From: Pseudarthrobacter sulfonivorans | Lineage (GTDB): Bacteria; Actinomycetota; Actinomycetes; Actinomycetales; Micrococcaceae | Direction of reading: 5' to 3' | Assembly: GCF_001484605.1 (NCBI RefSeq) | Contig: NZ_CP013747.1 | Coordinates: forward strand, 3,534,001-3,598,000 | DNA length: 64,000 nucleotides | Part shown: positions 40,470-55,158 of the stretch, one piece after another | Position numbering within the stretch: position 1 is the first letter of the stretch | How the letters are laid out: each line of letters opens with the position of its first letter | Translations under genes and position numbers: made by a program | The notes under the pieces: generated by a model | Seen by the model: the letters and a program-made list of their open reading frames with translations, nothing else | Database searches by the model: none | Told to the model about the DNA's origin: nothing

Positions 40470-41207
40470 TCAGCCCGTTTGCTCGGCGTACACAACGTAG
40501 TTCTCGGTGGCGCCGGCGTCGTTCAGCTGGAAGCACGTCACCAGCACCAGCCGCCCGGGCACGGCAGCCCAGAGGTCGTCCCGCTGCCCGAGACTGGTCT
40601 TTGCATAGCCGGCCGCCCCCGTGACCGTGTATCTCGTGACGCCCTCCGGCGTGGTGACCAGCACCGCGTCGCCCGGCTGTGCCCGGCCCGTGCCGGCCTG
40701 GATGTCCATCAGACCGTTGAAGGCCGAGTAGCCGAGGTTCCAGGAGTGGGCGGCCAGGTAAGTGGTGTTGGTGGCCGCTGAACCGGCCGGTCCGTAGTCG
40801 CTGATCCAGTACGCGAATCCATTGGACGGCGGGTTGACCCGGCGGTCGGCCGGGAGGTCCATCGGCAACACGGGAATGTCCATGCCGAGCCGCGGCAGTT
40901 GCACCCGCACCGGCTGGCCCGGCCCAGCAGGTGTCCGGGCCAGTTCCCGGCCGGCCAGCGCCTCAGCCTCTGCCGGCGTCTCCACCACCAGCGGGGCGCC
41001 GCCGCCTGCCGTTGTGGCGGCGGAGTCGGGCAGCCGCGGCGCAGATTCCGTGGCCTGCCCGGGGACTGCCAGCAGCGGCTGGGCCCCCGTCAGGAGCGGG
41101 ATTCCGTACACCAGCACCACGGAAAGGCCCAGCCCGGTCAGGCCGACGGCGGCAAGGTTACGGAAGCGGCGGCGCCTGCGGGCCGCGGATGTGGGGGCCC
41201 GTCGCAT
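40470..41207 (-). CDS. Sortase (class E/F-like), putative transpeptidase
   Basis: This 245-residue protein has an Arg-rich N-terminus, one membrane anchor (about residues 20-40), a Pro/Ala linker and a sortase beta-barrel. The catalytic His is H154 (YLAAHSW) and Cys is C225 (LVLVTCFQ). The basic residue that normally follows the Cys strand is not seen: no Arg or Lys lies between C225 and the C-terminus. It would attach surface proteins to the wall or to each other. The ATG follows the pstB stop codon directly, so it belongs to the Pst-type operon. It converges on topoisomerase IB. Confidence 0.8.
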   Translation of the reverse strand: MRRAPTSAARRRRRFRNLAAVGLTGLGLSVVLVYGIPLLTGAQPLLAVPGQATESAPRLPDSAATTAGGGAPLVVETPAEAEALAGRELARTPAGPGQPVRVQLPRLGMDIPVLPMDLPADRRVNPPSNGFAYWISDYGPAGSAATNTTYLAAHSWNLGYSAFNGLMDIQAGTGRAQPGDAVLVTTPEGVTRYTVTGAAGYAKTSLGQRDDLWAAVPGRLVLVTCFQLNDAGATENYVVYAEQTG

Positions 41208-42071
41208 TTACCCGAAGCGTCCGTTGACGTAGTCGCTGGTGCGCTGGTCCTGCGGGTACTGGAACATGGCGTCAGTGGGGCCGTGCTCAACGATCGCCCC
41301 GGGCGCGTTGTGTGCCGCCAGGAAGAAGGCACACGTGTCCGAGATACGCGCGGCCTGCTGCATGTTGTGGGTGACGATGACAATCGTGACAAGTCCGCGC
41401 AGCGACGCGATGGTTTCCTCGACGCGGCGGGTGGACGTGGGGTCCAGCGCCGAGCATGGCTCGTCCATCAGCAGAACCCGCGGGGAAACCGCCAGGGAAC
41501 GGGCGATGCACAGCCGCTGCTGCTGGCCGCCTGACAGTCCGCCGCCGGGCTGGTGCAGCCGGTCCTTGACCTCATCCCACAGGGATGCCTTGCGGAGTGA
41601 ATCCTCCACCAGGAAGTCCTTCTCCAGCCGGCTGGCCTTGATGCCCGCGAGCTTCAGCCCTGCGACGGTATTTTCGTAGATGGACATGGCCGGGAAGGGG
41701 TTGGCTTTCTGGAAGACCATGCCGATGTTGCGGCGCGCCAGGGTCACCCGCCGGCCCGGATCGTAGATGTCGGCCCCGTCGAGCAGGACCTGCCCCGCCA
41801 GCGACGCGGTTGGCACCATTTCGTGCATCCGGTTGAGGATCCGCAGGAACGTGGACTTGCCGCAGCCCGAAGGGCCGATCAGTGCCGTGACCTGTCCCGC
41901 TTCCATGGTCAGCGAGACGCGGTCCAGGACTTTGCGCTCGCCGAACCAGGCACTGACCGCCTTGGCGTCGAGCTCGGCCGCCTCGCTCCCGGCGAACGGA
42001 TCCGGGAAGCCCTCGCCCTCGGGCGGATCGAACACGGCCAGTGCGTGGCCGGAGGATGATTGCGTGGTCAT
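41208..42071 (-). CDS. pstB: Phosphate-type ABC transporter ATP-binding protein
   Basis: This 287-residue ATPase has Walker [10 protein letters not shown], the PstB-typical [30 protein letters not shown] sequence, the signature [16 protein letters not shown] and Walker [13 protein letters not shown] followed by the switch His in [13 protein letters not shown]. The N-terminal about 35 residues are a non-conserved extension. The ATG at 42071 has AAGGA upstream and was chosen over an open frame of 61 more codons. It ends directly at the sortase start. With PstC and PstA it completes a phosphate-type importer. Confidence 0.93.
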
Positions 42072-42097
42072 CAGGGTTCCTTCTGTGGAGATTTTCA

Positions 42098-43066
42098 CTA
42101 AAGCAGGTTGGGCAGCAGGAGGCTGACCTGCGTACCGGTCAGGACTGACAGCGCGCCGAGCATCGGGAGGAAGACCAGCCAGGTCTCCCGTTGACCCCAG
42201 CGGTACCACGACCAGACGGCGGCCATGGCGGCCAGGATCAGCAGTTCCAGGCATACCAGGAGTCCCACCAGGTCCGAGGTGTCAGATCCCAGGGGCAGCT
42301 CGGCGGCTTCCAGGGATGCCGGATAGAGGACCGGCGCGGTCTTCGGGAAAGCCTTGGACAGCAGCTTGGCGTCGACCCGCAGGACGCCGTCGGGAAGGAA
42401 GGCGGCCCCGGCTGCGGTGGTCAGGGTCAGGCGCCCTTCGTCACCGGTGGGGATGGACGGGCCGGGGTCACCGGCGCGGCGATGGCCCATTACTTCGAAC
42501 TCGGCCACTCCCAGCCCGGTGGTCACGGTGAACCGCTCGCCCGGTGCGAGGCGGGTCAGCTGGCCCAAGGGGCCACCGTAGGCGGCGGCCCTGCCCATCA
42601 GGACGCTTGTGCCGCTCTGCCCCGGCAGGGGAGTGTCCCGCCGGTGGCCGACGCCGTCCATCAGTTCCCGGGATGTGGTTCCCTCCACCACCGTTTCCTG
42701 GATGCCCAGTGCGGGAATCGAAAGCAGGGCCAGCGGTGTCCCCGGGGCCACCAATGCGCCCGTGTGGTCCGTCTGGCCGAGCGGTGCGGAGCCTTCCGCC
42801 AGGCCGGTCCGGAGCTCTTCAAACAGCCGGGTCTGCGTGGTGGAGTGCTGCACCTGCGAGATGATCACAATGTTGATGATCTGGCCGAAGAGGATCACCG
42901 AGACCATCGCCAGACCCAGCGAAATCGCCTTGTTAGTGTGCGACGGCGGGAGCCTGACGGGGGTGGCCCGGCGCCTGTTCCGTGCCGTACGGCGGAGCCA
43001 CGCGAGCGCGCCGCGGTGCAGGAAACGGGGGCCGGTCTGGCGCCGGCCGGTGAGTGTCGCGGTCAT
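42098..43066 (-). CDS. Sortase-fold membrane protein lacking the catalytic His and Cys
   Basis: This 322-residue protein has an N-terminal Arg-rich tail, a membrane helix (about 48-70), a sortase-like domain (about 105-235) and two C-terminal helices (266-287 and 296-318). The order of motifs is that of a sortase: [32 protein letters not shown], then LTLTT. At the site of the catalytic His there is R159 (LMGRAAAYG), and at the Cys site A218 (LTLTTAAG). It is therefore probably a pseudo-sortase. It overlaps pstS by four bases and precedes pstB by 26. It might bind sorting substrates without cleaving them, or regulate the neighbouring sortase (inference). Confidence 0.7.
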
Positions 43067-44751
43067 GCTTTGGTGCCGCGCTTACTCCGCGCACGCCTGG
43101 CCAGGGCGCCGGCGGTCAGTGGCGGGACGAGGACCAGAAGGCCCACGAGGCCGCCGATGATCAGCAGGAGGTTCTGCGGTTGTCCCCAGCCGCGGCTGGA
43201 GGCCAGCGTGGTGGTGACGGGAGTCAGTTGCCCGGCGACGCCGCTGGCGGCCCCGGCGGCTACGGCTGTGCACGTGCCGCTGTCGGGGTCACATGCTGCC
43301 GCTTCGCTGGCCGGATCGACGGCAGCCGCTCCGGCGTCGGCCAGGTCCGTCACTTCGGCGGTGCCGGCCGGAACTTCGGCTCCTGCTGCCGCCGTGGCCC
43401 CTGCCGGGCCCTGGTTGACGGCCGCGTCGGCACCGCGCCAGGGCACCTGGCAGGCAGCGTCGCAGGCCTTGTCGAACGGTGCGCTCCGCACGAGTTGGTT
43501 CGCCGAGGGTGAGTCGCCCGGCTTGAACGTGGGGTTGTTGCAGGCGGGCGCCGAACCGCCGGACACACTGTCGCGGGTCTGATCCATCTTGCGGATGGTG
43601 TCCTGGTCCACGCCCGGAATCTTGCGGATCTGCTCCATCCCGGCCAGGACCAGGTTCATGGGCAGCGGCGAGTATCCGAGTTGGCCCATGGGACGCTGGC
43701 CCTCGCACAAGGCGTAGTTCGCAAAGAAGCCCAGGGTGGCTCCCTGCGCCGGGTTCAGGGCATTGGTGGCCTGGGTCGGGACGATCATGTACGAGTACGC
43801 CGACATGGGATACGTGCGGGGGTCCTTGTAGCCGTACACCTTGGAGAGGTCCTGGGAAAGGTAGTTCGCTGATCCCTTGTCCTGGTTGATGCTCGCCTGG
43901 GTCAGGGCCACGGCCACTGCGTGCTCAGTGGGCAGCGTGTAAAAGCCGGCAGCGTTCTTGACCTGTGCCACCGGAAAGCCGATGCCCTGGGCGTAGGAGT
44001 ACTCGTCGTAGTTGATGGTGAACTGGTTGTTCGCCGAGTACGTGGTGACGCCCTGGGACCCGTTTTGTGCCACGAAGTTCTTGAGCCCCTGGGTGGGGTA
44101 AAAGGACGTGGCGTGCTGCGGATCGCAGCCGGTGACGGCGCACAGCTTGGCGTAGTCGGCAGGATACTGGCGCAACAGCCAGAGCGTGAACTGGGCTGTG
44201 GCGCCGGAGCCGTCAGAGCGGACCACCACGTTGATGGTGGCGTCAGGCAGGGCAACGCCGGGGTTGTCGGCGGTGATGATCGGATCGTTCCAGCGGGTGA
44301 CCTGGCCCGTGAAGACCTTGGCGATGGCCGGCTGCGAGAGTTTGAGGCTGGTCATCCGTGAGCTGCCGGCCTTCAGGTTGTACATAAAAGCGGTACCGCC
44401 GGCAACCACGGGCAGCATGCCGTAGGCGAAGCCGGGCATGCTGTTGTCGCGCGGGTCGGCGGTGTCCCCGGTGTAGGGGATTTCCGAGACGGCGAACTGC
44501 TTCATCTGGTCGGCGAATTCCTTGCGCCCCGTGGAGGAACCCTTGTTCTCGTAGTCCACGGTCACGCCCTGGGCGCCGACCCGTGCAATCCAGTCCTGCA
44601 GCGCGTTGCCCGCCCAGGAGGATCCGGAGCCGCCAATGCGCAGGTAGTTGGCCGCCTGGGCAGGCGCCAGGCCAGCCAGCACCATACCGAGTGACAGCAG
44701 GATTCCCAGGACCGCCGGAACGGTCCGTCGCTTGGAAAGGGGGCGGATCAT
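43063..44751 (-). CDS. pstS: PstS-type phosphate-binding protein with C-terminal membrane anchor
   Basis: This 562-residue protein has a cleavable signal peptide ending near residue 33 (LAPAQAA) rather than a lipobox. The PstS core follows: IGGSGSSWAGNALQDW, ENKGSSTGRKEF, LPVVAGGTAFMYNL, FTGQVTRWNDP and the phosphate-ligand loop VVRSDGSGAT. Residues about 400-510 are an Ala-rich, Cys-containing linker. A hydrophobic segment at about 525-548 and an Arg/Lys tail end the protein. Ordinary PstS proteins are about 350-380 residues and lipid-anchored, so this one is displayed on a stalk instead. It overlaps pstA and the pseudo-sortase gene by four bases each. Confidence 0.88.
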   Translation of the reverse strand: MIRPLSKRRTVPAVLGILLSLGMVLAGLAPAQAANYLRIGGSGSSWAGNALQDWIARVGAQGVTVDYENKGSSTGRKEFADQMKQFAVSEIPYTGDTADPRDNSMPGFAYGMLPVVAGGTAFMYNLKAGSSRMTSLKLSQPAIAKVFTGQVTRWNDPIITADNPGVALPDATINVVVRSDGSGATAQFTLWLLRQYPADYAKLCAVTGCDPQHATSFYPTQGLKNFVAQNGSQGVTTYSANNQFTINYDEYSYAQGIGFPVAQVKNAAGFYTLPTEHAVAVALTQASINQDKGSANYLSQDLSKVYGYKDPRTYPMSAYSYMIVPTQATNALNPAQGATLGFFANYALCEGQRPMGQLGYSPLPMNLVLAGMEQIRKIPGVDQDTIRKMDQTRDSVSGGSAPACNNPTFKPGDSPSANQLVRSAPFDKACDAACQVPWRGADAAVNQGPAGATAAAGAEVPAGTAEVTDLADAGAAAVDPASEAAACDPDSGTCTAVAAGAASGVAGQLTPVTTTLASSRGWGQPQNLLLIIGGLVGLLVLVPPLTAGALARRARSKRGTKA

Positions 44752-46028
44752 GGTTTCTCCTGCATGTTGTCGGTAGGTGCTGCGCCCAGGCTCGCCAGCA
44801 GCTGGGCGTGGTTGCGTTCAATGCGGGGCAGGTCGCGCCGGGACCTGGCGGCCGCGCGCCGTGCCTGGGCCTGTGTCTGCTTGCCGGCGTCCTGGCCGCC
44901 GATGATGCGGGCGATGATGAACAACACCAGGACCACGAACAGCAGGAACGCCGCGGTGGCGAAGCCGCGAGCCACCATCTCCGGCACCGGGGAGCGGACG
45001 TAGTCCAGGGCAGCCAGGGGAAGCGGTGTCTGTGGGCCGGAGAACGGATTGGCATTCATCACACCGGTAAAGCCGGACGTCAGCAGGACCGGCGCGGTCT
45101 CCCCGATGCCGTGGGCGGTGGCCAGGATGACGCCGGTGGTCAGGCCGGAGCGGACTGTGGGCAGCACAATGTGCCACACCACGCGCCATTGGCCGGCGCC
45201 CAGGGCCAGGCCTGCCTCGCGCAGGTTTCCGGGCACCAGCCGGAGGACGACGTCGGCCGAGCGGATCATGATCGGCAGCATCAGGACGGTGATGGCCAGC
45301 GAAGCGGCAAAACCATTGGTCTGATGCGTGATGGCCATAACCACCGCCGCGTAGATGAACAGGCCCGCCACAACGGACGGCAACGCCGTCATTGCTTCCA
45401 CGACTGTGCGCACGATGCGGGCCAGGCGCCCGCCCACCTCGTTGAGGAATACCGCCGTCGTCATTCCCAGCGGAATGGTGATGGCCAGGGCGATGCCGAT
45501 CTGTTCCAGCGTTCCCACCAGGGCATGCAGCACGCCGCCCTGGTCCAGGCCGGACAGGGGCCCGGCGCCGGTCATGTCAGTGGTGAAGAAGTTGAGGTGG
45601 AACAGCGCTTCCTGGCCGCGGGCGAACGTGAACATGACCACCAGGCCAAGGGTGCCGGCGACGGCGGCGCCCGCCGAGCTGAGCAGGACCGTCACCAGTC
45701 CGTTGCGGACTGCCGGAGCCGGCTGCCGCAGGTGTATCAGGGCGGTATACAGCAGCAGGAACCATAGGTAGGAAACGATGAACAGCCAGCCCAGGGGGAT
45801 CAGTCCCAGGGCCACGGTCAGCAGGAGTCCCATGGCCAGCCCGCCGGCGGCCGCGCCGGCCAGAGACAGGACGTGGTTGCGCCCAACGCCAAGCCGTACC
45901 CGGACTTCGTCCGGGGCGCCCGGGGTGTTGGACAGCTGCGGCAGCTCAGTGGCGGGGCGGCGTGGCCCGGGATCGGCAGGCAGATCGGTCACTTCGAAGG
46001 TGGCGGGTCCGTCGTCGGTGGTAGTCAT
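44748..46028 (-). CDS. pstA: Phosphate-type ABC transporter permease PstA
   Basis: This 426-residue permease carries an N-terminal polar extension (about 60 residues) and extra hydrophobic segments before the standard six-helix core. Core motifs are IGIALAITIPLGMTTAVFLNEVGGRLARIVRTVVEAMTALPSVVAGLF and the EAA loop REAGLALGAGQWRVVWHIVLP near residues 275-295. TAHGIGETAPVLLTSGF is typical of PstA. The C-terminus ends in an Arg-rich cytoplasmic tail. It starts two bases after the pstC stop and overlaps pstS, so the genes are translated together. Confidence 0.92.
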   Translation of the reverse strand: MTTTDDGPATFEVTDLPADPGPRRPATELPQLSNTPGAPDEVRVRLGVGRNHVLSLAGAAAGGLAMGLLLTVALGLIPLGWLFIVSYLWFLLLYTALIHLRQPAPAVRNGLVTVLLSSAGAAVAGTLGLVVMFTFARGQEALFHLNFFTTDMTGAGPLSGLDQGGVLHALVGTLEQIGIALAITIPLGMTTAVFLNEVGGRLARIVRTVVEAMTALPSVVAGLFIYAAVVMAITHQTNGFAASLAITVLMLPIMIRSADVVLRLVPGNLREAGLALGAGQWRVVWHIVLPTVRSGLTTGVILATAHGIGETAPVLLTSGFTGVMNANPFSGPQTPLPLAALDYVRSPVPEMVARGFATAAFLLFVVLVLFIIARIIGGQDAGKQTQAQARRAAARSRRDLPRIERNHAQLLASLGAAPTDNMQEKP

Positions 46029-46030
46029 GG

Positions 46031-47050
46031 TCAGCCCTCGCTTTCTGCGCCGGACCGGGACCTCGCCATGATGGCTGAGGCCGTGATGTTGACCAGCATG
46101 GTGATCACGAACAGCGTCAGTCCTGCGGCCATCAGCGCGCTCATCGCAGATTCGTTGGATTCGGAGTACTTCAGGGCAATCATGGCGGCGATCGAGTTGG
46201 CGCCCTTTTCCAGGACATGGAAATTGATCGCATAGACCGGGCTGATGATCAGGTAGATGGCGATGGTTTCGCCGAGCGCCCGTCCCAGCCCGAGCATGGT
46301 GCCGCCGATGATGCCGCCGCGGCCGAAGGGCAGCACCACGGTCCGGATCATGCCCAGCCGCGTGGCTCCCAGGGCGTAGGCGCCCTCACGCTCACCCGTT
46401 GGTGCGCGCCGAAAGGACTCCGTCATGATGGAGGTCTGGATCGGGACGATCATCATGGCCACCACCAGTCCAGCGATGAAGGCGGAGGCCGTGAACGGCA
46501 CGGTGTCCCGCAGCGGACTGCCCGGATCAACGCCGTCCACCTGCAGGAACGGTATCCAGCCGAACCACGTGGACAGCCACTTGCTGAAGTCCACCACGTT
46601 GGGCTGCAGCATGTAGGCGCCCCATAGGCCGAAGACCACCGACGGCACGGCGGCCAGGAGGTCAATCAGGCTGGTGAGTGCCTTCTGCATCCAGCCGGTG
46701 GCGACTTCGGTGATGAACAGCGCTGTCCCCAGGGCCAGCGGCATGGCGACGGCCAAGGCGACCGTGGCGATCTGCACCGTGCCCCACAGAACAGCGGCGA
46801 TGCCGAAGTCGTTGGTTTCCGGCGCCCAGTTCTGGGTGGTCAGGAATTTTCCCAGCCCCACCTCGCTGATGGCGCCGACGCCGTTGCCGGCCAGGAAGAG
46901 GCCCACCAGGACCATGATGGCCAGGACGATTCCGCCGCCGATCCGGGTGACGGTCCGGAACAGGTAGTCCTGCTGTTCCAACTGCTGGTGCAATGTGCGG
47001 GGAGTATCCTGCGCTTCATCGGCGCGGGAACGGGGCAGTACCGTGCTCAT
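46031..47050 (-). CDS. pstC: Phosphate-type ABC transporter permease PstC
   Basis: This 339-residue permease has a leading helix (FRTVTRIGGGIVLAIMVLVGLFLAGNG) and then the core with FGIAAVLWGTVQIATVALAVAMPLALGTALFITEV. The conserved LLAAVPSVVFGLWGAYML follows, and the EAA loop is REGAYALGATRLGMIRTVVLPFGRGGI. It is the partner of PstA. The start at 47050 overlaps the stop of the 925-residue protein (ATGA), tying expression of the transporter to that surface protein. Confidence 0.93.
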   Translation of the reverse strand: MSTVLPRSRADEAQDTPRTLHQQLEQQDYLFRTVTRIGGGIVLAIMVLVGLFLAGNGVGAISEVGLGKFLTTQNWAPETNDFGIAAVLWGTVQIATVALAVAMPLALGTALFITEVATGWMQKALTSLIDLLAAVPSVVFGLWGAYMLQPNVVDFSKWLSTWFGWIPFLQVDGVDPGSPLRDTVPFTASAFIAGLVVAMMIVPIQTSIMTESFRRAPTGEREGAYALGATRLGMIRTVVLPFGRGGIIGGTMLGLGRALGETIAIYLIISPVYAINFHVLEKGANSIAAMIALKYSESNESAMSALMAAGLTLFVITMLVNITASAIMARSRSGAESEG

Positions 47051-49824
47051 CGACGCCGTCCCCGTGCCAGCAGCGGCGCGGCGGCAGCGCTTGCTACTGC
47101 CGCCACGAGTCCGATCACCAGCGTGTACTGGGGCCAGGCGCTGCTGGTGGCCGCGGTCCGGCTGGGCACCGCAGCGGCGGCCGCGGGGGCAGCCGCAGGT
47201 GCTGCCGCCGGGACGACTTCTGCTGCGGCAGCGGCCGGTACGGCCGGTGCCAGGACTGCGGGCACCACGTTTTCGCCGGACACGGACTCCATCGGCATCA
47301 GGTCGGTGGTGGCGGCCGCGGCTTGCTGCGGCCCCTGGATTCCCTGCAGGGTCTGGATGCCGGCGGCGGCCAGCTGCAGCAGCGCCGGTGTGAGTGGCGC
47401 GTAGCCAGGTGGCAGCATCCCGCTCCGGAAGCCGGTCTTCTGGCCTTCGGTGCTGATGTACGAGAAAAGCTGGGCGAACGTTGCGGCCTGGGACTGGCTG
47501 ACGGAGGCAAGGTTCACCACGCCGTAGATCGGCAGGGTCAGCGGATACGCGGTGGTGTAGTCCGGGACGCTGGCAGGTCGCATGGCGCCGGGGGTACCGG
47601 TGGGTTCGAACTGGCCGGCTGCTGCCTGCAGGCTGCTGGTGGTGGCGCCAATGCACTGCGAGCCGCTGACGTTGCACAACTGCGCGGTGGGCAGTTGGAA
47701 CTTCGCTGCCGAGGCCGCGTCCGTAATGGACAGGACGCTGCGGCTGCCGTAGCCCTGACGCGCGACGGATTTGTACGCGGGCGGGCTGCAGTCGGCGCAC
47801 CAGGAGGTGGTGGACGCCGGCTGGGCGCGCACGGTGTTCTGGGCCGCCGCGGCCATGTCCTGGACGCGGGAATACTGGTCGCCTACGGTAAGGGCCGGCT
47901 CGGCGATGGAACCATCGCCGGCCATAACGGCCTGCTTCTGTGCCCAGTAGGCCTGCGGGTACGCGGCCCCTTCGGAGGGGTAGGTCTGACGGGCGTAGGT
48001 GAAGCCGTCAGGAGTTTTGGTCTCGGCGACCTTCCGCGCGGCCTGCTGGTCCAGTTCGGTGGCCTTTTCCTGGCATTCGCTGTAGGTCCGCGTCGAGTAG
48101 AACGGGTTGATGGTCATGCCGGAAGGATCCGGGCAACCGTTCAGGAAGGCCCTGGAATCCTTGTCGTTGAGCAGCCAGTCCCAGACAGCGGACGCGGCAT
48201 CCGAGCGCAGGCCTTCCACCACAGGGGGACTGAGGTTGCCGGAGGAACCCAGGCCCTTCGGGTTCAGGGCCCTGAACTCCGGATCATTCTGGATGGAATA
48301 CGTCATCGGCTGGCCATAGGCAGTGGTGCCGGGCTTCGTGAAGGGGGCCTCAATGGCGGAAGCCGGGGCAGTGTGCTGTACGTAGCTTTGCGTGAGCAGC
48401 TTGGCCAGCAGCCTGGCATTGAGTTTCAGGTCGCGCACCAGACCGGCGCTGCGTGCCTTGTCGGCCTCCCACTCTGCCTTGTCCTGGTAGCCGCAGTCGG
48501 CCAGCGTGTACTGCGTGAACGCTGCGGTGCAGGCATTGTCAATCGTCATGGCGATGACCACTCCGGCGAGCGCTGTCGGCACGTAGAGGGCGTTGATGTC
48601 ACCGGCGGCGGGGCGGGTGATAAAGGCGAGGGTGTCGGGCTGCTGCAGCTGGGTGCGGGCCTGCAGGTCCGCCAGCGGTGAGAAGCCCAGCGTGAACTTC
48701 TTGGTGTCGCACACGGCGGGGATCCAGGATTTCATTGCTGCGCTGAGGGCTTCGGAGCCCACGCTGAGGGTTGCCGCCTGATCGGTGGGGCAAACTGCGG
48801 CCACGTCCTGGAAGTGGAGCGGGACCTGCAGGCGCATCGCCCATAGGCTGGGGGCCAGTGGTCCGGCTGGCAGAATGGCGTCCATCGCGGCTGTCCGCGG
48901 TACGGCTACGAGCCAGCATTTGGCCACGCTGGGTGCGTCCGGGCGGTAGCCGCAGCCCATTCCGGAGGCCTCGGCGCCGCTCTGAACCTCGAAGGTGCGC
49001 GAGCCTGCGCCCTGTTCGGAGGACATAAAGCGGGAGAACTCGTTGGTGCTGGTCCGGCTGAAGAAGGGGTTGCGGTATTCGCTGAGGTTGAAGCCGTCCG
49101 TGATCCGCGTTTGTTCACCGGTGATAGCCAGGAAGGGGGCAGGAAGGTTCATGGTGGGGGAGGAGGGATCCTGGGCTTCCCAGTCCCCGCCGCGGACCAG
49201 GGGATCGTTGAGCAGTGAACGCTGGTGGGCCGTGCTGGAGATATCGCCGTCCAGTCCGGTCGCACCGAACTGGCAGGTGGAGGGGTCCGGTTCGGTGGCC
49301 GCCGGGTCAGGCTTGTTGTCCGTGCCCGGTTTGCCCCAGCACTGGAAAACCTGCAGATAGGACGTGCTGGCACCATTGCTGCCGGCGGCGGGATCCGCGC
49401 CGGTGAAGCTGATGGTCACTGATTGGTTCTGTAGGTTCCTGGTTTGGGAAACGCTCATGGACAGACCGCCCAGCCCGTTGCCCGGGCCGAAGGCACGGGT
49501 CGCGGAGTCGCGCAGCCGCTGATCGACGTCGTCGTACGTCTTCCCGGCAGTGTGCGGCAGCTGCTGCTCGTTTCCGCGGGGAACCGTGCTCTCCGCGGCG
49601 TTGTCAGTGTTGTCCCACGTGACGGTCGCCGAGGTGTCGCTGACCATGGAGCCGCGCGGCCCCCAGTCGGAGCCCGGAACGGTCGGATCTGCCGAGCTGG
49701 GCGGAAGCGAGACCAGCAGGAGGGCGCCCACAGCGACCGCAGCGGCCAGAGGGGAAGCCCACCGCACGCCGTGTTGCTGACGGGGCCTGGCGACGGCCTG
49801 TCGGGTGTTCCATGGAAGCGGCAT
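47047..49824 (-). CDS. Large anchored surface protein, distantly PstS-like, 925 residues
   Basis: The protein has an N-terminal signal peptide (hydrophobic about residues 24-41, ending PPSSADP) and a very long extracellular part with several Cys. The tail consists of an Ala/Pro-rich stalk (about 850-890), a membrane helix (WPQYTLVIGLVAAVASAAAAPLLA) and GRRR. The middle contains DTLAFITRPAAGDINALYVPTALAGVVIAMTI and a PYPLTLPIYGVVN-like region, which recall solute-binding proteins of the PstS group, but it is far larger than any I know. Its gene overlaps pstC by four bases. It may be an accessory receptor or a scaffold for the transporter. I do not recognise a named family. Confidence 0.6.
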   Translation of the reverse strand: MPLPWNTRQAVARPRQQHGVRWASPLAAAVAVGALLLVSLPPSSADPTVPGSDWGPRGSMVSDTSATVTWDNTDNAAESTVPRGNEQQLPHTAGKTYDDVDQRLRDSATRAFGPGNGLGGLSMSVSQTRNLQNQSVTISFTGADPAAGSNGASTSYLQVFQCWGKPGTDNKPDPAATEPDPSTCQFGATGLDGDISSTAHQRSLLNDPLVRGGDWEAQDPSSPTMNLPAPFLAITGEQTRITDGFNLSEYRNPFFSRTSTNEFSRFMSSEQGAGSRTFEVQSGAEASGMGCGYRPDAPSVAKCWLVAVPRTAAMDAILPAGPLAPSLWAMRLQVPLHFQDVAAVCPTDQAATLSVGSEALSAAMKSWIPAVCDTKKFTLGFSPLADLQARTQLQQPDTLAFITRPAAGDINALYVPTALAGVVIAMTIDNACTAAFTQYTLADCGYQDKAEWEADKARSAGLVRDLKLNARLLAKLLTQSYVQHTAPASAIEAPFTKPGTTAYGQPMTYSIQNDPEFRALNPKGLGSSGNLSPPVVEGLRSDAASAVWDWLLNDKDSRAFLNGCPDPSGMTINPFYSTRTYSECQEKATELDQQAARKVAETKTPDGFTYARQTYPSEGAAYPQAYWAQKQAVMAGDGSIAEPALTVGDQYSRVQDMAAAAQNTVRAQPASTTSWCADCSPPAYKSVARQGYGSRSVLSITDAASAAKFQLPTAQLCNVSGSQCIGATTSSLQAAAGQFEPTGTPGAMRPASVPDYTTAYPLTLPIYGVVNLASVSQSQAATFAQLFSYISTEGQKTGFRSGMLPPGYAPLTPALLQLAAAGIQTLQGIQGPQQAAAATTDLMPMESVSGENVVPAVLAPAVPAAAAAEVVPAAAPAAAPAAAAAVPSRTAATSSAWPQYTLVIGLVAAVASAAAAPLLARGRRR

Positions 49825-50020
49825 GAATTCTTTCTTTTCAATATTCCGGGTCGGTCATCAAACCTGTAGGCCGATTGTTCAGACCTGTCAGTGGAAGGTC
49901 CAGCCGGGTGGCAGCGGAAGCTGCTGGACTATTATTTCCCTAAACCATCCCGGACCCGCTGTGGCCTGACTAAGGAGGGATTTCCGGAAGGTGAACAAAA
50001 GGAATTGGCGTTGAAAGCGA

Positions 50021-50053
50021 AATTGCCCGGACCCCAGCGGGATCCGGGCAATT
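50021..50053 (-). terminator. Terminator after the 411-residue protein gene
   Basis: AATTGCCCGGA (50021-50031) pairs with TCCGGGCAATT (50043-50053). The stem lies ten bases downstream of the minus-strand stop at 50063 and is followed on that strand by a TTTC-containing stretch. A GGTGAAC half-site at 49990-49996, downstream again, could belong to a promoter for the 925-residue gene. Confidence 0.75.
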
Positions 50054-50062
50054 CCTGGTGAA

Positions 50063-51298
50063 TCAGGCCCGGGTGGCCTTGCGGCGCCGGGAAATGTAGA
50101 TCCCGCCGCCTACGCCCATGAGCGTCAGTCCGCCGATGACCATGGCAGCCAGTCCCGCAGTGCTGGCCGGGTTGGCGGCGGCAGCGCCGAACCAGTTGGT
50201 GTCCGCGAGGAACGGAGCGTTGGATCCGGCGGTCACGGTCAGGCCGGTGACCTCGAACGTTGCGCCGGCTGCACCCTTGAGGATCAGGGTGTGCGTTCCG
50301 GCAGGCAGGCCGGCCGGAACGGTGAAGACGTAGCCGACCGAACCGTCGGCGTTGGCGACAGCCGTTTCGGCCAGGACAACCGGCTCGGAGTGGATCTCGC
50401 CGGTGACCGTTTCGCCTGCGACGAAGGTGCCGGCGGGGGCGACTACCCCGTGCTTGGTACCTTCCACCAGTGCGGCCCCGCCCGTCAGCAGCACAATATC
50501 CGAACCGCTGGCTGCGCCGCCGCCCGCGCGGGGCCCGCCGGTGGTCGCCAGAGGTGCCGGGGTGGATTCGGTGGCCGACGGCGACGGTGAGGCTGTCTCG
50601 GTAGCGCTCGGTGACGGATCAGGCGTTTCGGTCTCGGTCGGCGTCGTGCTCGGCGACGGAGTCGCCGTTTCGGTCGCCGTCGGGGTGGCCACCACCGGCT
50701 GGCTGATGGTCCAGTTCTTCGACGCGTCGGTGGTGAGCGTGGCCCACGACGCTACGGACTTGCCCGCGACCGGGTTGATCTTGGCGGTGGTGACGCTCTC
50801 GTTCGAGACGGTGCAGACGTAACCAATGCTGTAGGTGTGGTTGGCCTGTACCACGGCTGACATGTCAGCAATGGGGGCCTTGCTGCTGTTCACAAAACCG
50901 GATTCCAGCGTGTTGTCGTCAGCAATTGTGCCGTTGGCATTCAGGGACATCGCGTACTGGGGATCCTGCGTCAGGGGGTAGACCGTCTGCGCTTCCACGG
51001 TGCTGCTCAGCGCCGGCTGGATTTCCTGCCCGGGCTCGGACATAAAGATCAGCGCGCCCTCGAGGATGTTGCCGGTGGTGGGGCAGACCATGTCGCTGTG
51101 CAGCTTCAGCACGGACAGGCTCAGGGCGCTCCAGTTGCCGCTCGTCGGGTTGGCCGTGACGGTTCCTGCCGAGCCGGCCGGGAGGGCCGCGTTGGCAACA
51201 GCGATTCCACCGCCCAGCAGGAGGGCGGTGCCGGCAACGGCGGCCGTGGCGTTCAGGCCCCAGCGGGATTTCATTGTCGTGGCGTTGGCCATAATCAT
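50063..51298 (-). CDS. Secreted, C-terminally anchored Ser/Thr/Pro-rich protein
   Basis: This 411-residue protein has a signal peptide (hydrophobic about 17-37, ANAALP) and a globular N-terminal domain with a single pair of Cys. A low-complexity linker of TPTATETATPSPS-type repeats spans about residues 205-250. A second domain (PAGTFVAGETVTGEIHSEPVV...) resembles Ig-like surface modules. The tail ANPASTAGLAAMVIGGLTL...RRRKATRA has the layout of a cell-wall sorting signal (short polar motif, hydrophobic stretch, basic end) but no LPxTG. In a locus with a sortase it is the best candidate substrate. AGAAAGAAGAA precedes the first ATG. Confidence 0.68.
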   Translation of the reverse strand: MIMANATTMKSRWGLNATAAVAGTALLLGGGIAVANAALPAGSAGTVTANPTSGNWSALSLSVLKLHSDMVCPTTGNILEGALIFMSEPGQEIQPALSSTVEAQTVYPLTQDPQYAMSLNANGTIADDNTLESGFVNSSKAPIADMSAVVQANHTYSIGYVCTVSNESVTTAKINPVAGKSVASWATLTTDASKNWTISQPVVATPTATETATPSPSTTPTETETPDPSPSATETASPSPSATESTPAPLATTGGPRAGGGAASGSDIVLLTGGAALVEGTKHGVVAPAGTFVAGETVTGEIHSEPVVLAETAVANADGSVGYVFTVPAGLPAGTHTLILKGAAGATFEVTGLTVTAGSNAPFLADTNWFGAAAANPASTAGLAAMVIGGLTLMGVGGGIYISRRRKATRA

Positions 51299-51508
51299 TT
51301 CTTCTTTCTCAGGTAAACGTGTCTACTGCTGCGGTGTTGCCCGGCGCCGGGAAATTAAATCCACCGGCCAACCAGCGAAAATCGCTGCGAAGAATTACCG
51401 ATCAGTCTGGGTCATCAGTCGAATTCTGCGGGCGTGGCAAAGTAAAGCAGGCCGGTACTGAAAGTAAATTCTTTATGAACGGAATTCAGGACCCGGCCGA
51501 AGGAATTG

Positions 51509-52627
51509 TTAGTTGGTGTAACCCGACTTTTTGCCCATCGTCCAGTCGCCCACGTAGGAGAGCGTTTTGAAACCGAACTTGTTGATGATGACCTTGCTGC
51601 CAATCGTCTTCAGGTTGGTGGTCACGGCGTTGCTCAGAACCAGGCTGTAAATGAGCTTGCTGGTCTGGGTGGAGCTGGACACCACGTTGTAGGTGTCGCG
51701 TGCGAAGATGCCCTTGCCGCTGGCGGGCGCCACGGCAGCGTTACCGTAGAGGTCGCCGGGGGCCAGAGCCGGAGCCGCGGTGGCCGGGTCAATGGCCTTG
51801 AGTCCATCGATGTTCGCCAGCACCTGACCGGCAGCGGTGGTGTTGGCCATGGCGCCGTTCTTCTGCGCGATCCACTGTGCGGCGGAGAACGCGATGATAT
51901 CGCCGTCGTTGATGAGAGCCGCACCGTTGTTCTCGGGATAGTTCTGCTCGACATCGGGGATGCAAGTGGTGTTCGGGGTGACACCAATGGCCTTCACGAA
52001 GAAGGCGCGGGTGCCCGAAGCGGCCTGGGGCAGCTTGGGAGTGAAGGTCATGGTTCCGATGACGGGCTTGCCGGTGGTGCCGTCAATGGTGACGCCGTCG
52101 CCGGCCGTACAGCTGAAGATGTTGGCGATTTGCTGGGTGGTCAGGTTCAGCGGCGTGTTGGTGGAGTCCTTGACTGCCACGGTCATCGCGTCGCGTGCGA
52201 ACGGCAGGAACGTCAGGTCGGTGCCTGCCACGCTGGGGGAGGAGGAGGACCGGGCGATGTCGACGTCGTTCCGCTTCAGCGTGAACGAGTTGTTGGCCGA
52301 GTCCTTGTAGACATGGTTCAGCGGGTTCAGGCTGGCGCTCAGGGCCTTGACGCCGGCACCGGAACCGTTGGGTCGGGTAAACGCGGTGACGCCGGTCTTG
52401 GTCACGATCGTCGCCGGCGTGCCGAAGGCGTCGTAGGAGGCCACTGTCCTGATGGGGCCCGCGTTGGTCAGGGCGTTCCAGACATCCTGGATGGTGTCGG
52501 AACCAACGGCCGCCAGCGGGCGGTCCGGCGTCGTGGGCTCCGCAGACGCGCTGGCTGAGCTGATCAGGCCGAGTGCCAAGGCGGTGACGCAGATAGCGCC
52601 GACAGCCTGGAAGGACTTCAATTTCAT
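51509..52627 (-). CDS. Secreted PstS-like substrate-binding protein
   Basis: This 372-residue protein has a classical signal peptide (residues 1-29, ending SASASAEP) and no lipobox or C-terminal anchor. The opening VGSDTIQDVWNALTN and the later GAGVKALSASLNPL, FLPFARDAMTVAV, LTTQQIANIFSC and PQAASGTRAFFVKAIG follow the PstS fold order (phosphate loop near SGTR). A second PstS-type receptor in the same locus suggests a different ligand, or a soluble scavenger that hands ligand to the anchored proteins. The ATG at 52627 has GGGGAA upstream. A tandem GTTCACC element lies about 185 bases upstream. Confidence 0.8.
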   Translation of the reverse strand: MKLKSFQAVGAICVTALALGLISSASASAEPTTPDRPLAAVGSDTIQDVWNALTNAGPIRTVASYDAFGTPATIVTKTGVTAFTRPNGSGAGVKALSASLNPLNHVYKDSANNSFTLKRNDVDIARSSSSPSVAGTDLTFLPFARDAMTVAVKDSTNTPLNLTTQQIANIFSCTAGDGVTIDGTTGKPVIGTMTFTPKLPQAASGTRAFFVKAIGVTPNTTCIPDVEQNYPENNGAALINDGDIIAFSAAQWIAQKNGAMANTTAAGQVLANIDGLKAIDPATAAPALAPGDLYGNAAVAPASGKGIFARDTYNVVSSSTQTSKLIYSLVLSNAVTTNLKTIGSKVIINKFGFKTLSYVGDWTMGKKSGYTN

Positions 52628-52745
52628 GTCAAGATTCCCCATCTTAGGTACCGAGTGGATTAGCTGGTGCAGGTGAGCCACGGCGCAGTGCGGGCACTGC
52701 CGCTGCGGTCTGCGGCTGCCGGAGTAGTCAGGACAGTGCCGGCCG

Positions 52746-53600
52746 CTAAGAGTCTGCGGCGGCGCTGCCCGGCATTTCGAATTGCTTGGCTAAGAAGAAC
52801 CTGCGATCAGGTGAACGTTTGGTGAAAGCCGGCAAGGGGGCTTCGGGCAGCCGTTCCACGCCGGGAGCTCCTGCACGCAAGAGCTCGGGCGGGAACTCAA
52901 CCGGAAGATGCCGGTGTCCGTGGCGGATCACTGTTTCCAGCAGGCGTGCGCCGCCAAGCAGGTCCAGTGCCGCCAGGGCGCTGCGGTCCCGGTCCCGGAT
53001 GGTGGGGTACCAGGCGCTGGCCATCAACACGGGGCGTCCGCGCAGGCTGACGTACCACCCGTAGTCCCGGGCCTGCTGGTTCTGGACGAAGGTAATGGTT
53101 AGGTCCTGGGCGGCCTTCTGAGCGGCCGTCGCATTCGCGGCCGCCACCGCATAGCTCGGGAAGAGGCCAACACCCCGGCCGAGTTCCCTGTGGTTGCCCG
53201 AGATCAGGCGCCAGACGACCAGTGGCTGGTTGAAGTGATCCATCCGGCGCACCAGTTGGTGGATGGCCGGCAGGCGGACTGCCTGTGCCAGGACTTCGGT
53301 TGGCTGTTCAACGGGATTGGTCAACCGTTGCCGCACGTTAAGGGATGGCAGCGCGGAAACATGGCCGTGCTGAACGCCAGCGCTGAAGACGGCGAGTTCG
53401 CGCTCCTTCCAGCGGGTCGCCGCAGGAAGGGCCTGACTAACAAGAGAGGTGAAGGAAATGCGTTCATTGGAAATGATGGCTCCCCAGGGATCCTGTGACT
53501 GGACGCCGCCCATGCGGTCGTGATAAGGCTCAAGCCGGATGGTTGCCAGCCGGGGTGGCGGGGGTAAAGGAAGGGTGACGGGCAGCTGAACGTCTGGCAT
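52746..53600 (-). CDS. Hypothetical protein, 284 residues
   Basis: I do not recognise a family. The chosen start gives MPDVQLPVTLPLPPPPRLATIRLEPYHDRMGG; the frame is open upstream, but that part overlaps the divergent fprA promoter region. The sequence alternates helices and strands with YGWYVSLRGRPVLMASAWYPTIRDRDRSALAAL and RLLETVIRHGHRHLPVEFPPELL. There are no membrane segments and no obvious catalytic motif. It is upstream of, and in the same direction as, the secreted PstS-like gene. Its last 30 codons cover a PHO-box-like element, so it might be the first gene of the locus or simply an unrelated neighbour. Confidence 0.6.
   Translation of the reverse strand: MPDVQLPVTLPLPPPPRLATIRLEPYHDRMGGVQSQDPWGAIISNERISFTSLVSQALPAATRWKERELAVFSAGVQHGHVSALPSLNVRQRLTNPVEQPTEVLAQAVRLPAIHQLVRRMDHFNQPLVVWRLISGNHRELGRGVGLFPSYAVAAANATAAQKAAQDLTITFVQNQQARDYGWYVSLRGRPVLMASAWYPTIRDRDRSALAALDLLGGARLLETVIRHGHRHLPVEFPPELLRAGAPGVERLPEAPLPAFTKRSPDRRFFLAKQFEMPGSAAADS
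52810..52827 (-). promoter_or_regulatory. PHO-box-like tandem repeat
   Basis: On the plus strand GGTGAAC (52810-52816) and GGTGAAA (52821-52827) are exactly 11 bases apart; on the minus strand they read TTTCACC-N4-GTTCACC. Tandem 11-base units with GTTCACC are the known PhoP box arrangement of actinobacteria. It is oriented toward the secreted PstS-like gene, about 185 bases upstream of its ATG, within the end of the preceding gene. Confidence 0.6.
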
Positions 53601-53632
53601 CACACGATGCCGCGTCCCGCGGTGGGCACATT

Positions 53633-53638
53633 TAGAAT
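53633..53638 (+). promoter_or_regulatory. -10 box candidate for the second ferredoxin reductase
   Basis: TAGAAT (53633-53638) lies about 65 bases upstream of the GTG start of fprA2, in the 103-base divergent space. No convincing -35 is visible. AGAAGGG before the GTG serves as ribosome binding site. Confidence 0.4.
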
Positions 53639-53703
53639 GGGACATTGTGCGCAACTGCACTGTGCGCGTCCGTCGCAATCTCCTCGTTCCAGAAGGGCTC
53701 CCG

Positions 53704-55158
53704 GTGTCCAACCCAGCCGAAACGACCTCCAAACGTCCACTCCGCGTTGCCATTGTGGGTGCGGGACCGGCAGGTGTTTACGCGGCGGATATCCTGACCA
53801 AGTCCAACGGCGTCAAGGACGGCGATTTTGAGGTCAGTATCGACCTTTTTGAGGCCTACCCCGCCCCGTACGGCCTGATCCGCTACGGCGTGGCCCCTGA
53901 CCACCCGCGCATCAAGGGGATCGTGAACGCGCTGCACAAGGTCCTGGACCGCGGCGACATCCGCTTCCTGGGCAACGTCACGTACGGCCGCGATCTCACC
54001 CTCCATGACTTCCGCGCCTTCTACGACGCCGTGATCTTCTCCACGGGCGCCATCAAGGACGCGGACCTGGCCATCCCTGGCGTTGATCTCGGCGGTTCGT
54101 TCGGCGGCGCCGACTTTGTGTCCTGGTACGACGGCCACCCGGACGTGCCCCGCGACTGGCCGCTGGATGCCAAGGAAATCGCCGTGATCGGCAACGGCAA
54201 CGTGGCGCTGGACGTGGCCCGGATGCTGGTCAAGCACCCCGATGAACTCCTCACCACCGAAATCCCGGACAATGTCTACCAGGGCCTGAAGAACTCGCCG
54301 GTCACGGACGTCCACGTCTTCGGCCGCCGAGGCCCGGCGCAGGTCAAGTTCACGCCGCTGGAACTGCGGGAGCTGAGCCACATGAAGGACGTGGACATTG
54401 TCCTTTACCCGGAGGACTTCGAGTTCGACGAAGCCTCCGATGACGCCATCCGCAGCAACAACCAGATCAAAACCATGGTGAACACGCTGACCAACTGGCT
54501 CGTGGAGGAGCACGCCGAAGCGGAAGAGCCGTCCTCCCGCCGCCTGCACCTGCACTTCCTGCACAGCCCGGTGAAGATCTACCAGGACCCCGACGACGGC
54601 GGGTCCGGCCGGGTGGCCGGCATCAAGTTTGAGCGCATGGAGCTGGATGGCACCGGCAACGTCAAAGGCACGGGCGAGTTTGTGGACTACCCCGTCCAGG
54701 CCGTGTACCGCGCCATCGGCTACCACGGTTCGCCACTGGACGAGCTGGAGTACAACGCCAAACGCGGAGTGATCCCCAACGAGGGCGGCCGCGTGCTGGA
54801 CGCCGACGGCAACCCCGTCCCCGGAATCTACGCCACCGGCTGGATCAAGCGCGGGCCGGTCGGCCTGATCGGGCACACCAAGGGCGACGCCCTGGAGACC
54901 ATCGGCTTCCTACTGGAGGACCGGCTCACCCTGCCACCCGCCCAGAACCCGGACCCGCAGGCCATCATCGACCTCCTGCAGGAGCGCGGCATCGAGTTCA
55001 CCACCTGGGAGGGCTGGATCAAGCTGGACGCGCACGAAGCAGCCCTCGGCGCCGCGTGGACAGAAGGCGGGACAGGCACCGACGGGCCCGCCGCCGTCGT
55101 GCGTGAACGCATCAAAGTAGTCCCGCGTGAGGAAATGATCAACATCTCCCGCGCCTGA
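53704..55158 (+). CDS. fprA: FAD-dependent ferredoxin--NADP+ reductase, second copy
   Basis: This 484-residue paralog of the protein at 24830 shares nearly all motifs: GAGPAGVYAAD, APYGLIRYGVAPDHPRIKGIVNALHKVL, IGNGNVALDVARML, HVFGRRGPAQVKFTPLELREL and ATGWIKRGPVGLIGHTKGDALET. The two are clearly a duplicated pair within one 30 kb stretch, differing mostly in loops and in the C-terminal segment. The GTG start was chosen because AGAAGGG precedes it and the copy at 24830 begins equivalently. It stands alone, diverging from the hypothetical gene of the Pst block. This copy may serve other ferredoxin systems such as P450s, while the first serves sulfite reductase (inference). Confidence 0.92.
   Translation: MSNPAETTSKRPLRVAIVGAGPAGVYAADILTKSNGVKDGDFEVSIDLFEAYPAPYGLIRYGVAPDHPRIKGIVNALHKVLDRGDIRFLGNVTYGRDLTLHDFRAFYDAVIFSTGAIKDADLAIPGVDLGGSFGGADFVSWYDGHPDVPRDWPLDAKEIAVIGNGNVALDVARMLVKHPDELLTTEIPDNVYQGLKNSPVTDVHVFGRRGPAQVKFTPLELRELSHMKDVDIVLYPEDFEFDEASDDAIRSNNQIKTMVNTLTNWLVEEHAEAEEPSSRRLHLHFLHSPVKIYQDPDDGGSGRVAGIKFERMELDGTGNVKGTGEFVDYPVQAVYRAIGYHGSPLDELEYNAKRGVIPNEGGRVLDADGNPVPGIYATGWIKRGPVGLIGHTKGDALETIGFLLEDRLTLPPAQNPDPQAIIDLLQERGIEFTTWEGWIKLDAHEAALGAAWTEGGTGTDGPAAVVRERIKVVPREEMINISRA

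Follow-up and report, generated by a model that had tools for sequence, protein, structure and literature searches.

Gene content of the block

The window analysed here is a stretch of 64,000 nucleotides (nt) from Pseudarthrobacter sulfonivorans (contig NZ_CP013747.1, positions 3,534,001 to 3,598,000), part of a 5.06 Mb actinobacterial genome. Open reading frames and family profile searches revealed a block of nine genes, all on the minus strand and running from 52.7 to 40.5 kb, in which a Pst-type ABC transporter is combined with surface proteins and two sortase-like proteins. A sequence-only reading of this DNA had claimed such a gene set on one strand, and all nine genes were recovered where it had put them. 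In minus-strand order they are (aa, amino acids; TM, transmembrane segment):

51509..52627, minus strand: S2, secreted PstS-like solute-binding protein, 372 aa, start ATG at 52627 (open frame from 52681)
50063..51298, minus strand: Ser/Thr/Pro-rich surface protein, 411 aa, membrane-anchored at the C-terminus, with LADTN ahead of the anchor
47047..49824, minus strand: predicted enlarged PstS paralogue, 925 aa, N-terminal extension, six invariant Cys, C-terminal hydrophobic anchor
46031..47050, minus strand: PstC permease, 339 aa (TIGR02138)
44748..46028, minus strand: PstA permease, 426 aa (TIGR00974)
43063..44751, minus strand: PstS, 562 aa, tail-anchored by a C-terminal TM (PBP_like_2, 4.8e-34)
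42098..43066, minus strand: predicted pseudo-sortase, 322 aa, with a membrane helix at the N-terminus, a sortase fold lacking the catalytic His and Cys, and a helix hairpin at the C-terminus
41208..42071, minus strand: PstB ATPase, 287 aa, start ATG at 42071 (open frame from 42254) (TIGR00972; ABC_tran, 2e-34)
40470..41207, minus strand: class F-like sortase, 245 aa, His and Cys present (PF04203, 3.1e-12)

PstC scored above the curated TIGR02138 cut-off (249.6 versus 196.45 bits). For PstA, PstB and PstS the curated models were the best matches, with scores below the cut-offs (189.7 bits against 193.45 for PstA and TIGR00974, 340.1 against 343.2 for PstB and TIGR00972, and 187.1 against 205 for PstS). 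By its permease and ATPase the block is best regarded as a Pst system, and not a sortase system by enzymology.

The sequence-only reading had joined the genes from the 925-aa protein to the pseudo-sortase into one translational chain of four-base overlaps. ATGA overlaps were indeed present at three junctions (925-aa gene/pstC, pstA/pstS and pstS/pseudo-sortase), but the chain is interrupted between pstC and pstA, where TGA-CC-ATG leaves a gap of 2 nt and no overlap. The pseudo-sortase gene is followed by pstB after 26 nt (with the pstB start taken as 42071), and pstB and the class F-like sortase gene abut.

An ordinary operon with a lipoprotein PstS, PstC, PstA and PstB is located elsewhere in the genome. 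The sequence-only reading had held that a separate ordinary Pst operon explaining phosphate uptake, together with silent block genes, would speak against it; such an operon does exist, and it makes the block an addition. At least two PstC proteins above the cut-off were found in 37/37 block-bearing genomes searched (45 are known), the extra copies being placed in an ordinary operon by reading in this genome only. The block shares with ordinary PstSCAB the proteins PstC, PstA and PstB, a PstS with phosphate-type loops and a PHO-box-like repeat upstream. It differs in its tail-anchored PstS, in two more PstS-like receptors, one of them of 925 aa, and in the constant pseudo-sortase.

No phoU gene is located in the block, as the sequence-only reading had remarked. 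However, the absence is not peculiar, since the genome has a single PhoU-domain gene (G000:C1:1508931, 233 aa), which is also unlinked to the ordinary pst operon. The idea that a missing PhoU signals a non-Pst role was dropped for this reason. By eye, phoU (G000:C1:1506500-1512500, L246) lies beside genes for a PhoR/PhoP-like histidine kinase and response regulator, away from both pst operons. For Streptomyces, the available part of one study likewise describes phoU as unlinked to pst and beside the PhoR/PhoP pair (PMC7866108).

A conserved sortase-fold protein without catalytic His and Cys

The product of the gene between pstS and pstB was recognised as a sortase fold, and database entries name it "sortase" or "class E sortase". 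We compared it with its relatives in three sets. A scan of named genomes, from which the best 80 of 185 confirmed stretches were retained, gave 79 loci. It used two patterns, and as one of them included the Arg found in place of the catalytic His, R159 is there partly by selection. Therefore, the linkage test was repeated on 40 loci from a sample that was drawn separately and is free of this selection. A third alignment (A3), also free of it, comprised 70 of 120 listed homologues and the query (71 rows).

The catalytic His is replaced by Arg in 80/80 rows of the named loci and by Arg or Lys in 41/41 rows of the 40-locus set. At the matching position, 25 of 26 ordinary sortases carry His and the remaining one has a gap. 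No Cys at positions 208-228 and no His at positions 156-162 was found in any of the 80, 41 or 71 rows. Class D and E sortases have both catalytic residues; this protein lacks them in all rows examined and differs further by an extra C-terminal helix pair, which ends in LLPNLL or close variants. As judged from these alignments, the conserved sortase-like protein is a pseudo-sortase that has lost the catalytic His and Cys. Therefore, despite its fold, we do not file it as a sortase enzyme. The sequence-only reading had called it degenerate, and this degeneracy extends far beyond the present genome. A decayed pseudogene was dropped as an explanation in view of the ratio of nonsynonymous to synonymous substitution rates (dN/dS) of 0.16.

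Three PstS-like receptors

The motifs GSGS, GSS-G, S-E/D and RSDGSG (commonest variants) are present in the block PstS and in most of its 63 relatives, which suggests that it largely keeps the phosphate-binding loops. A C-terminal hydrophobic segment was found in 62/63 relatives, and a lipobox-like motif in none of the 32 proteins under 620 aa of which the first 80 aa were inspected. Ordinary PstS is a lipoprotein or free periplasmic protein, whereas the block PstS is tail-anchored.

S2 matched TIGR02136 weakly (1.9e-5) and a PstS profile with E 3e-5 and probability 73; Pfam and a PDB sequence search gave no match. The 925-aa protein had no Pfam match either. Its residues from about 352 to 827 align with the PstS domain (HHalign probability 98, E 5e-14; in a second alignment 98 and 1e-12), and Cys162, 184, 291, 303, 345 and 372 are invariant in its family (alignment A2, 89 rows: 88 of 120 listed homologues and the query). 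By profile alignment the protein is a divergent PstS of enlarged size, in which EGLRSDAA stands opposite the PstS Ser/Gly loop (RSDGSGAT), so that its ligand site appears altered or lost. The term "anchored", which the sequence-only reading had applied to these surface proteins, is accurate in the sense of a C-terminal membrane anchor; the 411-aa protein has LADTN, not LPXTG.

A third PstS-like protein of the genome (356 aa; L007:4236-5306, G000:C1:4044358-4045212) has a lipobox-like start. Its gene lies, by eye, among glycosyltransferase-like and membrane-protein genes, with no Pst permease in the 10 kb of frames read.

The block is conserved across Actinomycetes

Most of the 79 named loci are from Streptomyces; others are from Arthrobacter, Cryobacterium, Microbacterium, Planotetraspora, Kineosporia, Hamadaea and further genera. 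Within the best 80 of 185 stretches, the closest relatives of the pseudo-sortase are those of Pseudarthrobacter sp. HLT1-5 and MDT3-9 (98-99% identical). Searched by phmmer with the window proteins, the named loci, many of which end early at contig ends, yielded the pseudo-sortase in 79, pstB in 78, S2 in 67, the 925-aa family in 64, pstS in 61, pstA in 54, pstC in 49, the 411-aa protein in 8 and the class F-like sortase in 6. The pseudo-sortase gene adjoins pstB in 77 of the 78 loci that have both. The flanks reached 9 kb or more upstream and 1.5 kb or more downstream in 57 loci; all 57 of these contain pstB, 56 the 925-aa family, 54 pstS, 54 S2, 50 pstA and 45 pstC.

With a Streptomyces member as query (E <= 1e-20), the pseudo-sortase was detected in 40/296 genomes drawn evenly across the class, representing 25 of 114 genera. 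A family search found clear members in 5/149 genomes (E <= 5.5e-81); the next best match was at 1.2e-8, and matches beyond this wide gap resemble ordinary sortases where checked. The 40-locus sample, composed of 36 of 48 places from the class-wide search and 4 from the family search, with stretches cut off by contig ends or after about 9.5 kb, contained the 925-aa family in 36 loci, pstB in 36, pstS in 34, S2 in 34, pstA in 28 and pstC in 24. The gene set is common to Streptomyces, Marmoricola, Kineosporia, Planotetraspora and Microbacterium and occurs in at least three gene orders. We conclude that the block is a real conserved unit and not a chance adjacency.

Within its own genus the block is rare: the 925-aa protein is present in 2/37 genomes, this one included. 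A search of 14 genomes of the genus, with the gene for a ferredoxin-NADP reductase (a name given by its appearance, not by family search) as probe, showed the block at the same place in one of them (G013). In the 13 others, chosen from 35 same-genus genomes without the 925-aa protein, the probe gene lies directly beside a topoisomerase IB-like gene (8) or a rarD-like gene (5), with no match to any block gene in the stretch. In the window, the topoisomerase IB-like gene flanks the block on the far side and the rarD-like gene is the next one after it. Between this genome and G013, dN/dS ranged from 0.06 to 0.16 across all nine genes, indicating purifying selection, with pstC, pstB and pstS as the most constrained (0.06-0.08). 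Chance adjacency was dropped on account of the linkage in the 79 named and 40 separate loci and the clean insertion site.

Two loci deserve separate mention. At L047:190-9814 (Planotetraspora) the pseudo-sortase and pstB are accompanied by two S2-like proteins and a WxLIP protein, and the same strain has a full cluster at L037. In a metagenome-assembled Marmoricola genome, the first pstB is followed after about 0.6 kb by a second pstC-pstA-pstS-925-aa set on the same strand (L022:12413-18948).

A PHO-box-like repeat upstream of the block

The PHO box of S. coelicolor consists of GTTCACC 7-mers with 4-nt spacing, as described in the available part of PMC4415409. A similar repeat precedes S2, in a region that also contains a doubtful gene:

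52810..52827, minus strand: PHO-box-like repeat TTTCACC-AAAC-GTTCACC, about 180 nt upstream of S2
52746..53753, minus strand: doubtful gene, 335-aa open frame upstream of S2, no Pfam or NCBIfam match

The repeat (52827-52810) agrees at 13/14 positions with a consensus built from the S. coelicolor 7-mers. A scan of the genome at <=1 mismatch gave 3 matches, and a control with the reversed pattern none. Both 7-mers are kept (12-13/14) with four different spacers in five lineages of the window clade, a count that takes L014 and G013/L240 as apparently one genome and considers that the L012/L013 pseudo-sortase is 98-99% identical to that of the window. Sites with at least 11/14 matches occur in 38% of the regions upstream of 68 pstC genes and in 3% of background windows. 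These observations suggest that the block may be under PhoP control through this repeat. The 335-aa open frame is 72% identical in G013, inside the same inserted block, and overlaps the repeat; it could either encode a protein or be a shadow frame that covers the promoter region.

The class F-like sortase and other variable partners

The second sortase scored 29.5 bits against the class F model NF033748, far below the cut-off of 166, and its only match in a PDB sequence search was an engineered repeat protein (E 0.099). All 7 rows of its group show a His, Cys, Asn active-site pattern, which is that of actinobacterial class F sortases in the available part of PMC6998099; their role is given as unknown in the available part of PMC13251363. 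With class F it shares His and Cys and an Asn in place of Arg, and it differs by being very divergent and seen just in Arthrobacter and Pseudarthrobacter loci, to which all its relatives belong (6/79; this protein and the 411-aa protein were counted in the named loci only).

The 411-aa protein matched Gram_pos_anchor below the cut-off (0.054) and has relatives in 8/79 named loci. It contains no LPXTG; the LADTN before its C-terminal helix is a possible sorting signal. In the 6 loci that also encode the class F-like sortase, the protein ends with an (L/A)ADTNW motif and a membrane helix; its frame is broken into two parts in L016. At L018 and L019 the relative of the 411-aa protein is without this end and the locus is without the class F-like sortase. 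The class F-like sortase may thus be the enzyme for the 411-aa protein, and it is a local addition outside the core.

In these six loci the class F-like sortase occupies the slot after pstB. Elsewhere this slot holds an SLT_2-type transglycosylase (L018:11857-12729, L019:11756-12574, L079:4929-5714), which suggests a variable wall-modifying slot. Among 86 neighbouring frames of the 40-locus sample (hand-picked from 175 candidates, mainly in the direction of the cluster), we detected Big_3_5 Ig-like domains in 15, WxLIP in 6, weak WxL matches in 3 and PF04203 sortases in 3. Ig-like (Big_3_5) and WxLIP-type examples also occur among the named loci.

The sequence-only reading had proposed a surface capture apparatus whose components a sortase anchors or links. 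The capture apparatus is reasonable, since the receptors are secreted or membrane-anchored and some relatives have Ig-like or WxLIP partners. Sortase linkage as a general mechanism was dropped: the conserved member lacks the catalytic His and Cys, and relatives of the class F-like sortase, the catalytic one, occur in 6/79 loci. The PF04203 matches in 3/86 frames indicate that other loci may hold other sortases.

Discussion

We regard it as somewhat probable that the block is an accessory, second Pst-type importer induced by phosphate starvation, whose receptors are displayed at the surface and which includes a sortase-fold subunit without a catalytic role. It would be switched on by phosphate shortage and suited to the thick-walled actinobacterial envelope. 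PstC, PstA and PstB would form the ABC permease, with PstS held at the membrane by its C-terminal helix and not by a lipid, and the 925-aa PstS relative and S2 would widen the zone of capture to the wall and the space outside it and hand over their ligand, presumably phosphate, to the permease. To this each lineage would add a wall-anchoring partner of its own, here the class F-like sortase with the LADTN anchor and elsewhere Ig-like or WxLIP-type proteins. The pseudo-sortase would be the constant, non-catalytic membrane subunit and serve as a docking scaffold, most likely keeping the tail-anchored receptors at the permease by binding their C-terminal segments, uncleaved, in the former substrate groove. 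More broadly, catalytically dead sortases across Actinomycetes could be a fixed ABC-importer subunit that docks tail-anchored binding proteins by their C-terminal segments and so equips a Pst permease for capture at the surface; we put this forward tentatively, as a plausible idea that falls short of being the expected outcome.

Several observations weigh against this account. The active-site Cys column of the pseudo-sortase moves by one residue between aligners (A218 or A219), and the argument therefore rests on the absence of Cys anywhere in 208-228. In the register aligned with ordinary sortases, the window protein has no Arg in the catalytic Arg column, and R230 is variable (68/80 named rows, 17/41 rows of the separate set), so that we make no claim on the catalytic Arg. 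The contact of the pseudo-sortase with the permease is purely a proposal. The 925-aa protein, which lacks the Ser/Gly loop of PstS, may bind another ligand, and a C-terminal TM passed a crude hydropathy test in 45/67 proteins of its family. The PHO-box-like repeat lies inside the doubtful 335-aa open frame. It is the sole match in the window at <=2 mismatches, a level at which 0.58 matches are expected by chance and at least one occurred in 42/100 shuffles; the other two matches of the genome-wide scan are not beside recognised Pho genes, one being within an HAD-like frame. The best site of the ordinary pst operon reaches 11/14, and the enrichment upstream of pstC pools related Streptomyces loci. 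Other pst genes are on the opposite strand at one locus of the 40-locus sample (L184), and the 10 kb retrieved for L047 contain neither a permease gene nor pstS nor a gene of the 925-aa family. Finally, aligned to chain 9k3s_A, which we take to be E. coli PstA, the window PstA has His at the position of Arg220, a residue presumably needed for phosphate transport in E. coli.

This last point and the altered loop of the 925-aa protein bear on the nature of the ligand, which the sequence-only reading had thought might not be phosphate. With the same architecture, the block could serve another cargo: under phosphate shortage, a phosphorylated organic or polymeric compound such as teichoic acid fragments, nucleotides or glycerol phosphates would first bind to S2 and the 925-aa protein, and PstCAB would import the compound itself or its phosphate. 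Besides the missing oxyanion loop and the PstA His, the Ig-like and WxLIP-type surface proteins of relatives would suit a bulky ligand, and the ordinary Pst operon and the multiple PstC copies in 37/37 genomes suggest that phosphate is already covered. On the other hand, the dedicated PstS keeps its phosphate motifs, the PstA position is Arg in 45 of 56 rows (His in 10, a gap in 1), and one GDPD and one His_Phos_1 match (25 of 40 families shown, from the 86 neighbouring frames) alone hint at organophosphate use. The retained motifs and the PHO-box-like repeat weaken the doubt about phosphate, with the 925-aa paralogue as the part of it that stands, and we consider another cargo rather unlikely. 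Less likely still is that the block is not an importer and that a Pst-type ABC machine supplies the energy to assemble, present or sense a surface complex; the PstS-like proteins would then be structural components and the pseudo-sortase an energy-coupled factor in assembly. The constant pseudo-sortase with its own C-terminal helix pair, the tail-anchored PstS and the SLT_2-type transglycosylase next to the cluster in some lineages would agree with such a machine, but PstC and PstA are close to true Pst permeases, PstS retains its ligand loops, and pstC, pstB and pstS are the most constrained genes.

The remaining two alternatives concern the premises of the importer reading. The pseudo-sortase might be an ordinary sortase, in decay or misaligned, that continues to anchor proteins by means of another residue, as the database names and the aligner-dependent Cys column would allow. 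The absence of Cys from 208-228 and of His from 156-162 in all 80, 41 and 71 rows, the alignment of His there in 25 of 26 ordinary sortases (one gap), and the constrained evolution (dN/dS 0.16) make this very improbable. That a horizontally gained neighbourhood holds Pst and surface genes together by chance would be in line with the patchy distribution in the genus and the clean insertion site. However, the same set recurs across distant genera in at least three gene orders, its genes overlap and are under purifying selection, and among the 40 separately drawn loci both the 925-aa family and pstB are found in 36, so that simple adjacency is hardly credible.

In Isd haem uptake, wall-anchored receptors hand a nutrient to an ABC importer with the help of sortase B. 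An accessory Pst importer would share with it the principle of a relay from wall-anchored receptors to an ABC importer and a dedicated sortase, but the receptors are unrelated and the conserved sortase-like protein of the block is dead; a Pfam scan of the block gave no NEAT match, and the block is not an Isd member. WxLIP (DUF916) and weak WxL matches connect some relatives to the WxL/csc surface clusters of Firmicutes, which are thought to gather nutrients, and for which the available parts of these sources mention no Pst genes or pseudo-sortase (PMC1534035, PMC9772566). The Pfam scan gave no WxL or WxLIP match in the window block itself. Searches of the open-access literature aimed at the block or at dead sortases gave no description of this block among the papers listed.

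The pseudo-sortase family suggests that the sortase fold has been kept across a bacterial class without its chemistry, and proteins labelled sortase in databases need not be enzymes. If the proposal is true, the sortase fold is used as a receptor or scaffold, and not as a transpeptidase, within a nutrient transporter. The passage of small nutrients across a thick Gram-positive wall becomes testable in common Streptomyces and Arthrobacter strains from soil or the laboratory. Soil phosphate is often scarce, and with the pseudo-sortase in 40/296 genomes and 25/114 genera of the class, a second Pst of this kind, undescribed and with receptors at the surface, would matter for competition for phosphorus. 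The block looks like an undescribed way of catching scarce phosphate through a thick wall, in many actinobacteria.

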